Below, one piece after another: positions 4,646 through 12,394 of a stretch of 21,930 nt of DNA; the first letter of the stretch is position 1, and each line of letters opens with the position of its first letter. The position numbers were made by a program, and so were the translations under genes. Source of the stretch: an uncultured Ruminococcus sp. (GTDB taxonomy: Bacteria; Bacillota_A; Clostridia; Oscillospirales; Ruminococcaceae); contig ONBA01000038.1 of NCBI GenBank assembly GCA_900315975.1, positions 1-21,930 on the forward strand, written 5' to 3'. The notes under the pieces were generated by a model. The model had not been told where the DNA came from and made no database searches. It saw only the letters and a program-made list of their open reading frames with translations.

Positions 4646-6355
4646 TTAGCCGATGCGAATAACTTTAAGGTCGTAAATACTGCATCTCAGGTTATCAGTA
4701 CCACCGAGGTCAAATACTATCTCTGAGCTTCCGCCTTCAGAAGATGTAAATGTAGCTTCGTATGCGGTTTTAGCGCCTTTACCGGTAAACACGTCATCGT
4801 AAATGACAGCATCTGTACCTGTTTTGCTCACTTTGAAAGGTATCTCCTGTCCGTCAGCAGTGTCTATACTGAACTGCAAACGGTACTTTCCGCCCTTACG
4901 GATATCTATTCCGGACGCTTTCGCCTGTATCGACTCTTTTGCACTTCCGCCTGTAACGGCAGTAATATGATATGAGCCGTCCCAGTCACTGTAATATGCG
5001 CTGAAATTAGCACCGTCGCTCTTTTCCGATGAATACTCAGCTTCTGAGGCAACATCAATGCCGTACTGGTCAGATTCTATACCAAGAGCCTGACATATCT
5101 TGTCAGCGAGAACGTAAGAACTGTTCTTGTGTGTAGTCTCACTGGGGTGCCAGTCAGAACCATAACCGTCAGCCTGAGACTGAGTTACCGACTGATAGCA
5201 CATTATCTTTTCCCAGCCGGTGTCCTTGCGGAATGTTTCAACCGCTTCCTCAATGCACGGATATAACTCGGTACAGCCCATAGTTCCGAGAGTACATATA
5301 ATGTACGCATCAGGATTCAGCTCGTGCACCTTGCTGAGAAAATCAACATAACCGCTTGTATACTCAGCTGAACGTGTATCAAACTCCTTTGACACATACG
5401 TATCATCATTAGTACCGAGATTGATGACTACAACATCATTTCTGTTAGCTTCAAAGTTCCACGGCTTAGCATAATTTCCGTTGCCTATCTTTTCGTAGCA
5501 GTCAGGAACGAGTGAACCTGTCTGCTTATTTCCGTTTGAAGAATAACCTGAAATTATACCATATCCGCTGTAGCTGACTGCCGAGTAGTCTGCACCGAGT
5601 CTCTCAGCTGTAAGGTACGCATACGACTTCATGAAGTTTTCAGTCGATGCCTTGAAGTTTTCATACTGGTCCTTGCCCTCAACACCGTATGCACAGGTTA
5701 TCGAGTCGCCTATAAACTCGATATGAAGGTCCTTGCCGATAGTTGGTGCTACAGGTACAGGAACGTCTGAATCAGTCGTTATCTTCTTTATTCCGACTGC
5801 GCCGTTGTTTGCTTCTGAAAGATGTATTACCCTTATGGTCGCGGTACGCGACTCCTCACCGCTGAAAAGTTCAACAGTTTCCCTGCCCGATGTAAGCTGT
5901 TTGTCACAGAAAACTTCACCGTCCACAAGGATTGCATATCTCGGGCAGTTATCCTCATTGCTGACCACATAATTGTCGCCGCAAAGCTCTATAGAAGCCG
6001 ATTTGCCGGTAACTGTGAATTCCGCAGAAGCACCGCTCTGCACAAGCCAGTATGCACCGTTATCATCGGAGAAGCCTCTGCCGATGAATCTGACGTTTTC
6101 ACTGTTCACTTCCCAGTCACGCTGAGTGAAAACTCCGGTATGGTCGAACATCTTACGCATCAGGACGAGGTCAAATGAATCTACACTGCCGTCACCGTTG
6201 AGGTCCTGTTCTGATGTAAGCGCTGATTTGCCTAATAATGCGCTTCCGAGGTCTCTGAGTCCGGTAACTGACGGCTGTGTTTCCGCAGAAGCGGTCAGAC
6301 CTGCAAGTGCCGCCGCTGAGATTGCCGCTAAAGCCGCTGAAGCAAGTTTCTTCAT
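4646..6355 (-). CDS. Secreted SGNH esterase, CE2 type, with a dockerin-like half module
   Basis: The 569-residue protein starts with a Sec signal peptide (about 1-24, ending ASA). Residues about 30-72 hold one complete dockerin-type calcium loop, DLNGDGSVDSFD (51-62), preceded by only a degenerate helix (GLRDLGSALLG), so it is half a classical dockerin. A beta-sandwich of about 80-195 follows, then an SGNH hydrolase domain: GDSIT (Ser218), GTNDD, and DWHP (Asp401, His403). This order fits carbohydrate esterase family 2, which removes acetyl groups from xylan or mannan. The last 125 residues resemble a carbohydrate-binding beta-sandwich. AGGAG lies 9 bases before the ATG. It follows the YaiI gene by 19 bases and ends before a terminator. 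Substrate is inferred. Confidence 0.8.
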   Translation of the reverse strand: MKKLASAALAAISAAALAGLTASAETQPSVTGLRDLGSALLGKSALTSEQDLNGDGSVDSFDLVLMRKMFDHTGVFTQRDWEVNSENVRFIGRGFSDDNGAYWLVQSGASAEFTVTGKSASIELCGDNYVVSNEDNCPRYAILVDGEVFCDKQLTSGRETVELFSGEESRTATIRVIHLSEANNGAVGIKKITTDSDVPVPVAPTIGKDLHIEFIGDSITCAYGVEGKDQYENFKASTENFMKSYAYLTAERLGADYSAVSYSGYGIISGYSSNGNKQTGSLVPDCYEKIGNGNYAKPWNFEANRNDVVVINLGTNDDTYVSKEFDTRSAEYTSGYVDFLSKVHELNPDAYIICTLGTMGCTELYPCIEEAVETFRKDTGWEKIMCYQSVTQSQADGYGSDWHPSETTHKNSSYVLADKICQALGIESDQYGIDVASEAEYSSEKSDGANFSAYYSDWDGSYHITAVTGGSAKESIQAKASGIDIRKGGKYRLQFSIDTADGQEIPFKVSKTGTDAVIYDDVFTGKGAKTAYEATFTSSEGGSSEIVFDLGGTDNLRCSIYDLKVIRIG

Positions 6356-10457: not shown

Positions 10458-10550
10458 ATCTAAGCTGATTTGAGAAGCATCTTGCCAATAATTCATACGG
10501 AAGCAAACAGGAACGTGTGTCACTCAAAATGCCAAATGTTATGAATCTAT

Positions 10551-10624
10551 CGGACGACCAATGGTCGTCCATACAAAACCAAACGTAAACAGCAAAAATG
10601 TAGGGACGCACAGTGCGCGTCCCT
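10551..10624 (+). repeat. 74-base intergenic repeat, copy 2
   Basis: This is the second copy of the element at 1695-1768, aligned end to end without gaps. AGGGACGC (10602-10609) pairs with GCGTCCCT (10617-10624). It lies between two convergent genes, and its right end includes part of the stop codon (10623-10625) of the minus-strand GNAT gene. The rest of the 165-base gap after the GntR gene shows nothing clear. Confidence 0.7.
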
Positions 10625-11335: not shown

Positions 11336-11364
11336 TTGTATTACTGTTAAGCATGAGATATAAT
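11336..11364 (+). promoter_or_regulatory. Promoter of the GH11-like dockerin gene
   Basis: TTGTAT (11336-11341) and TATAAT (11359-11364) are 17 bases apart. The leader is about 85 bases. The 260-base divergent gap holds only this and the opposing GNAT promoter as far as I can see. Confidence 0.65.
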
Positions 11365-11455
11365 TAATGTAACCTCAATAACCGCCATTATGCGTTTATT
11401 GCCACGAACTTCGTTCAGGAAGCAGACATTTTATTATTATTTCCGGAGGTGTATT

Positions 11456-12394
11456 ATGAAAATAAAACGTTTACTCTCTGCCTTGACCGCTATTGTGTGC
11501 ATTTCAGCGTCATCAGCTTTATCAGCGAGTGCAGAGCAAAATGAAGTAATAACGATTGACGGATATGACTATGAATACTGGGAAGACCCTTCATACAGTG
11601 ATACAACTTTCGTTCCCGATGGAAACGGTGGATTTGACGCTTCGTGGTCAACAGACTCTTATTGCTTTTTCAGTAAGGGACTGATAAAAACCAAACCAAA
11701 TTCCTGCAACTACAATGTAAGCTATGACATTTCTCTGAATGTTGAAACGAATCCGGAAATTAAAGGTGACAACTCAATAGTATGCGCTTATGCTTACTAT
11801 TCAGAACCGATGACTTTTTTCTATGTCACAGACAGCTACACCGATGAATACCCCCTGACTTTTGATAAGGATGATATGAAATATATCGGAAATTATACCT
11901 CTAACGGCAATACCTATGACATCTACTACGAAAGGATAATACAGCGCAGTATCGCCGGTTATGAAACTAAATTCGACCAGTTTTTCAGTGTACGCAGAGA
12001 CGGTAAAATAGAGGGAAACAGTGCAGAGCTGAAGGGTAGTATCAATATGAAAGACAGTTTTGATGCTATCGAAAAAGCAGGATATAAACTCGGCACCCCC
12101 GATGTGATATCCATGAACGTTGAAGCTTTCAGATGCAAAGGCTCCGCAAAGCTTAAAAGCTGTGAAATAACTGAAATCACAGACTCTGAACCTGATATTA
12201 TCGCCGGCGACCTTAACGGTGATGAGAGAGTCGACTCATTCGACGTTGTTCTCTGCCGTCAGGAAATCGTAAATGTACAGAACGATTCAAAAGTAAATGT
12301 CCTCGCAGATATCGACAAAAACGGAAAAGTACAGGTCAACGACCTCGTTTTGATCGCTAATTTTGTACTCGGCAAAAAAACTTATATCTCATAA
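11456..12394 (+). CDS. Secreted GH11-like protein with C-terminal dockerin, nucleophile missing
   Basis: The 312-residue protein has a signal peptide (about 1-26, ASA/EQ). Residues about 36-240 follow the GH11 xylanase order: YDYEYWED, GGFDASWS, AYAYYSEPMTFFYVTDSY, RSIAGYETKFDQFFSVRRDG, the helix FDAIEKAGYKLG, and SMNVEAFRCKGSA. In active GH11 enzymes the nucleophile lies in P-L-[VI]-E-Y-Y-[VI]-V-D; here the position is Phe121. The acid/base position remains Glu223, and the tyrosines expected near the subsite (Tyr112, Tyr123) are kept. It is therefore probably not a normal xylanase but a binding module or an altered enzyme. A type I dockerin follows with two calcium loops (Asp252-Asp263, Asp285-Asp296), so it should dock to a scaffold outside the cell. 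GGAGG lies 6 bases before the ATG. The alignment is by eye. Confidence 0.78.
   Translation: MKIKRLLSALTAIVCISASSALSASAEQNEVITIDGYDYEYWEDPSYSDTTFVPDGNGGFDASWSTDSYCFFSKGLIKTKPNSCNYNVSYDISLNVETNPEIKGDNSIVCAYAYYSEPMTFFYVTDSYTDEYPLTFDKDDMKYIGNYTSNGNTYDIYYERIIQRSIAGYETKFDQFFSVRRDGKIEGNSAELKGSINMKDSFDAIEKAGYKLGTPDVISMNVEAFRCKGSAKLKSCEITEITDSEPDIIAGDLNGDERVDSFDVVLCRQEIVNVQNDSKVNVLADIDKNGKVQVNDLVLIANFVLGKKTYIS

Follow-up and report, generated by a model that had tools for sequence, protein, structure and literature searches.

The window analyzed here is a 21,930-nucleotide stretch of an uncultured Ruminococcus sp. contig. At 11456..12394 it carries an open reading frame of 312 codons plus stop, preceded by GGAGG at 11445-11449, whose product combines a putative signal peptide, a domain derived from the glycoside hydrolase family 11 (GH11) fold, and a type I dockerin. 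The features of the gene, all on the forward strand, are as follows.

11357..11423, +: degenerate copy of a multicopy, promoter-like two-hairpin intergenic element, directly upstream of the gene
11456..12394, +: gene of the GH11-derived dockerin protein (312 amino acids plus stop)
11456..11536, +: signal peptide, residues 1-27, its end set by eye from ...ALSASAEQ
11558..12154, +: GH11-like jelly roll, residues 35-233 (Pfam, AlphaFold2 model, Foldseek and VIA)
11789..11791, +: Tyr112, equivalent of Y69 of Bacillus circulans xylanase, kept (alignment)
11816..11818, +: Phe121, codon TTT, at the nucleophile position (E78 of B. circulans xylanase; alignment)
11822..11824, +: Tyr123, equivalent of Y80, kept (alignment)
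12122..12124, +: Glu223, codon GAA, in NVEAF, at the acid/base position (E172), kept
12203..12370, +: type I dockerin, residues 250-305 (Pfam PF00404, Dockerin_1)

The Pfam GH11 model (PF00457) matches residues 35-233 with 86.8 bits, above the curated cut-off of 27, and Dockerin_1 matches with 31.3 bits (cut-off 22.9) over model positions 1-57 of 57. A phmmer search against PDB chains returned 106 distinct sequences at E ≤ 0.001, headed by 7zsz (1.4e-22). In the AlphaFold2 model (pLDDT 88.1), the domain is predicted to form a GH11 jelly roll, and Foldseek and VIA comparisons gave matches to GH11. An earlier note, made from the letters of the window, had proposed a dockerin-borne GH11 fold and suggested a Pfam search and a structure prediction as checks; both came out in its favor. 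The two calcium-binding loops and the helices of a type I dockerin are present, two helices appearing in that part of the model. Pfam coverage agrees with the claim that both loops are intact, with the caveat that a Gln (seen by eye) occupies position 9 of the second loop.

The placing of residue 121 comes from aligned sequences: in the alignment to 7zsz, PLVEFY of the enzyme lies over PMTFFY of the window protein, with Phe121 opposite the nucleophile Glu. This is where the earlier note had put it, and the acid/base Glu223, Tyr112, Tyr123, and the Q-x-x-SVR strand (here QFFSVR, beginning with Q175) likewise align as it had described. A sequencing slip at Phe121 is unlikely because TTT shares no base with GAA or GAG at any codon position, the reading frame is open, and the protein's own 90%-identity cluster comprises 28 sequences on 7 contigs. 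Retaining hydrolysis by GH11 requires the nucleophile. The window protein has the acid/base Glu of a retaining xylanase and lacks the nucleophile Glu, which predicts the absence of retaining xylanase activity. It is a homologue of GH11, derived from the GH11 fold, without the family's full catalytic pair; as an intact, maintained homologue lacking a required catalytic residue, it is a probable pseudoenzyme.

Genomic setting

Downstream of the gene, xylulokinase and xylose isomerase are encoded on the opposite strand. Elsewhere in the window, 4646-6355 on the reverse strand encodes a CE2-type acetylxylan esterase-like protein, in which a single dockerin-like loop near the N terminus was seen by eye and was not called by Pfam. 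Cohesin and dockerin matches were found in 11 of the 11 genomes checked, and the 3 cohesin and 59 dockerin matches of the nearest of them (G001) make a docking partner for the window protein likely.

The locus recurs in the close relative RUG127 (L047, the same contig as C69 of G001), whose DNA is 99.3% identical to the window from position 12198 onward. The GH11 part is absent there, unrelated DNA stands ahead of the dockerin, and the dockerin remnant carries changes; the GH11 part did not turn up elsewhere when G001 was searched at the protein level. The departure from the window sequence lies inside the gene (L047 7900-8370), with the start of an IS3-type transposase reading frame seen nearby by eye, and may be a rearrangement or an assembly join. 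Unless it is an assembly fault, the missing part together with the lack of another copy suggests that the domain may be dispensable.

The intergenic element ahead of the gene is about 66 bp long and consists of a TATAAT-like box followed by two hairpins. It is multicopy in the genus (copies L097 to L126): across eight genomes there are at least 39 matches in G014 (where 40 of 47 candidates were scored), 8 in G001, and 1 to 6 in each of the other six, at varying distances from the next open reading frame. An alignment of 25 copies shows two-sided changes at 3 of the 13 predicted pairs, including one pair so changed in 9 copies, but the covariation term is small. The element has no Rfam match. 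Another short stretch (window 10539-10622) also has matches in several genomes of the genus.

Relatives and their catalytic residues

A protein search over about 5.8 billion proteins (E ≤ 0.001) returned six, one of them the window protein's own cluster of 28. P0002 to P0005 have the same layout as the window protein at 48-51% identity, and P0006 is an ordinary GH11-CBM-dockerin protein at 31%. When 125 genomes of the genus were queried with an alignment restricted to the GH11 part, 95 contained a match at E ≤ 1e-12, and ten matches in ten genomes were set apart at E ≤ 8.1e-38 (next best, 5.1e-32). Three of these ten (L087, L088, and L089) are short forms or a variant of them, six (L090 to L095) are long forms, and L096 is a distant form. 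In L089 (4956-7436, forward strand) a degenerate GH11-like domain, with C and D at the catalytic positions, follows BspA-type leucine-rich repeats and precedes a dockerin. A search with the L094 protein yielded at least 19 proteins, P0007 being the L094 protein itself; P0024 and P0025 match it over 33% of its length only, so their C-terminal halves differ. Long relatives have one clear and one probable extra roll of the GH11 fold, and a Pfam scan of seven long or distant forms turned up no further kind of catalytic domain, an arrangement that might serve a multivalent binder.

Three of the long forms (L090, L094, and L095) adjoin or lie near ordinary GH11 xylanase genes, encoding GH11-GH10 once and GH11-CBM-esterase twice. 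The neighbor of L087 is a GH43-CBM6-dockerin gene, and a GH9 gene lies in the vicinity of L089; no such neighbor was found for L088, L093, or L096 among the genes scanned.

For residue counts, the long forms (n = 18) were 17 of the 19 proteins from the L094 search plus L090, leaving out P0017 (failed motif) and P0022 (truncated); L088, part of which reads N, was excluded. The ordinary set came from 50 loci (L001-L031 and L068-L086), of which 42 were parsed, giving 43 domains with P0006. Of the eight not parsed, L001 has PLVEFY and VEGW, while L015, L068, L072, and L086 are absent from the ordinary catalytic counts. The remaining three, L069, L073, and L075, form another degenerate group; they carry tandem degenerate GH11-like domains, with a dockerin starting at the locus end, and by eye their first domain has Glu at the nucleophile position and Arg at the acid/base position.

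All 43 ordinary domains have both E78 and E172, complete active sites that partly reflect selection, since these loci are the best GH11 profile matches. In the seven short forms, the nucleophile position reads F (window), E, T, E, N, E, and C, and two of the three sequences with E (P0004 and L087) are almost identical to each other. The acid/base residue is E in six of the seven and D in L089. Among the long forms, the nucleophile is E in 17 of 18 (V in L090) and the acid/base is E in all 18. The earlier note had suggested looking for relatives sharing the substitution; the nucleophile is lost in three of the six other short forms, as T, N, and C rather than F.

In a tree built without the nucleophile column, the clade (24 rows without L096) stands apart from ordinary GH11s with support of 98/95, and an earlier 32-row tree agrees (13 rows, 99/97); L096 and B. 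circulans xylanase were flagged as long branches. On this tree, Glu versus not-Glu takes at least three changes and the residue itself five, but the number of separate losses is uncertain, as support for the short-form group is only 88/75. By its sequence, then, the window domain groups within a larger remodelled clade of GH11 folds. The earlier note overlooked this clade, whose changes go far beyond the nucleophile, and it is more interesting than the window protein itself.

Erosion of the cleft

None of the 7 short and none of the 18 long forms has the equivalents of Trp71, Pro116, Trp129, or the cord residues Trp88 and Arg89. Asn35 is kept in 0 of 7 short and 14 of 18 long forms, Gln127 in 2 of 7 short forms (the window included) and 0 of 18 long forms, and the Tyr123 position is Phe in 18 of 18 long forms. 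The window protein thus lacks cleft residues that are conserved in ordinary GH11s; it retains, among others, the equivalents of Trp9, Tyr69, Pro75, Tyr80, cord Pro90, Gln127, and Arg132. R112 was not counted as lost, a basic residue lying one column off in the MAFFT versus the HMMER alignment. Of 56 positions at least 95% fixed in the 42 ordinary domains, the window protein keeps 28 and the nine other clade members compared keep 18 to 29, against 39 in B. circulans xylanase, 55 in P0006, and 45 and 47 in L031 and L020 (both among the 42).

We compared mean entropy in the cleft, defined by 32 presumptive cleft positions (31 usable), with that in the rest of the domain. Ordinary enzymes guard the cleft most (0.44 bits versus 1.19 bits for the rest; 42 domains), whereas the clade cleft is no better conserved than the rest (1.19 versus 0.98 bits in 6 short forms and 1.07 versus 0.95 bits in 18 long forms). 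This counts against plain xylan binding in the old cleft and against catalysis, and it suggests that relatives with both Glu residues may not be xylanases. Aromatic residues occupy 12 of the 32 cleft positions in the window protein, 10 in B. circulans xylanase, 10-11 in P0002 to P0004, and 5 and 6 in P0005 and L089. Several residues are conserved in the clade and atypical of ordinary GH11s (K74, I77, P81, S83, Y90, A111, S219, S235, and C236); Asp126 is present in all 24 clade rows counted, but ordinary GH11s have Asp or Glu at the matching position. Of the xylan-binding pseudoenzyme offered by the earlier note, the pseudoenzyme part is supported (intact, secreted, dockerin bearing, with the fold retained and the nucleophile gone), and xylan binding is weakened by the loss of Trp71, Pro116, Trp129, Asn35, Trp88, and Arg89 and by a cleft that is not preferentially conserved.

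What the remodelled fold may do

We give about an even chance to the reading that in the window protein a GH11 xylanase fold has been disarmed and retained as a nonhydrolytic subunit of a Ruminococcus cellulosome, with its roll binding plant wall polysaccharide. The protein would be secreted and then held on a scaffoldin cohesin through its dockerin. The jelly roll would most likely serve as a binding module. Many residues with which ordinary GH11s grip xylan are gone from the cleft that it would use, and the ligand is probably other than plain xylan. The predicted fold and dockerin (Pfam, PDB search, and model), the varying nucleophile position of the short forms, the separate clade, the adjoining genes for xylose isomerase and xylulokinase, and the 12 cleft aromatics (10 in B. 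circulans xylanase) support this reading, as does, by analogy, the binding of glycans by pseudoglycosidases of other families described in passages of PMC7828330. Against polysaccharide binding, a shared sugar-binding cleft would be expected to be conserved, and the clade cleft is less so than the rest; the aromatic lining dwindles in P0005 and L089; and RUG127, without the GH11 part, may indicate a dispensable domain unless its assembly is at fault.

The main rival holds that the roll no longer binds sugar and instead has a structural role in the cellulosome or binds protein there, whether as spacer, adhesin, or partner surface. The inverted conservation of the cleft, clade-conserved residues such as K74, I77, and P81, and the fusion of L089 to leucine-rich repeats fit this account, and passages of PMC2930009 list many Ruminococcus flavefaciens dockerin proteins with such repeats or unknown modules. 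We nevertheless consider it rather unlikely: 5 of the 6 other short forms retain the acid/base Glu, and 4 of 6 short forms (P0005 and L089 being the exceptions) maintain the number of cleft aromatics, neither of which a pure spacer would need. It is improbable that the gene is simply under weak selection and on its way out, its nucleophile lost as xylanase activity became redundant. The differing nucleophile residues of the lineages and the truncated, altered locus of RUG127 would agree with such decay, but full-length layouts persist in P0002 to P0005 and open frames in L087 and L088 at about 50% identity, the 90% cluster holds 28 sequences, and many fold positions and the dockerin remain conserved.

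The acid/base Glu, retained by all 18 long forms and all but one of the 7 short forms, the invariant Asp126, and the acetylxylan esterase-like gene in the window could suggest a glycosidase with another mechanism, either substrate-assisted cleavage of 2-O-acetylated xylan by Glu223 alone or use of a replacement carboxylate. We think this quite improbable. No conserved new residue occupies position 121, so that the different mechanism entertained in the earlier note is unlikely if it is to rest on that residue; one short form has Asp at the acid/base position, Asp126 is no novelty of the clade, and many cleft residues, presumably those that hold the sugar, are gone. Most improbable is a decoy soaking up plant xylanase inhibitors (TAXI or XIP), also offered in the earlier note, because the cleft is not conserved and the thumb Pro116, Asn35, and the nucleophile, which we take to be contacts of such inhibitors, have all changed. 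Phytophthora sojae XEG1 is a GH12 protein. Its paralogous decoy, mentioned in PMC6549527, offers a precedent.

Beyond the nonhydrolytic, polysaccharide-binding subunit that we favor for the window protein, we tentatively suggest that the GH11 fold has given rise to a dockerin-borne class of non-xylanases in Ruminococcus cellulosomes along at least two separate lines, often as tandem rolls. In this possible scheme, the nucleophile was given up in the window line and the acid/base residue (by eye) in the line of L069, L073, and L075, and the members would be unrecognized GH11-derived binding modules or, where both Glu residues remain, enzymes acting on a different wall glycan. Since the short forms, at about 50% identity, differ at a single catalytic site (E, F, T, N, or C), the conversion of an enzyme into something else within the cellulosome becomes directly testable, and these forms may explain some dockerin proteins without clear function. 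Two long relatives bear the NCBI name "glycoside hydrolase family 11 protein"; with such names and the Pfam filing under GH11, xylanase counts of cellulosomal genomes may be inflated.

Possible long forms appear among listed R. flavefaciens proteins. Passages of PMC5301203 give ZP_06144896 of strain FD-1 as GH11-UNK-Doc with a group 3 dockerin and report a binding preference of groups 3 and 6 for the ScaC cohesin, and passages of PMC4081043 list GH11-GH11-Doc in strains 17 and 007c. Compared by listed architecture alone, these proteins fit the long forms and may belong to them. Passages of PMC2930009 count 118 R. flavefaciens dockerin proteins with unknown regions; the passages of PMC5301203, PMC4081043, PMC2930009, and PMC2721979 contain no mention of missing GH11 catalytic residues. 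Pseudoglycosidases such as the pseudo-chitinase YKL-39 (passages of PMC7828330) likewise have a hydrolase fold without catalysis, but they belong to other families and are noncellulosomal, and their glycan binding was measured, whereas here it is inferred. With GH11 endo-1,4-beta-xylanases (B. circulans 1XNB and 7zsz), the window protein shares the fold, domain length, acid/base Glu, equivalents of Tyr69 and Tyr80, and the SVR strand; unlike them, it lacks the nucleophile Glu and six cleft equivalents and keeps half of the 56 fixed positions.
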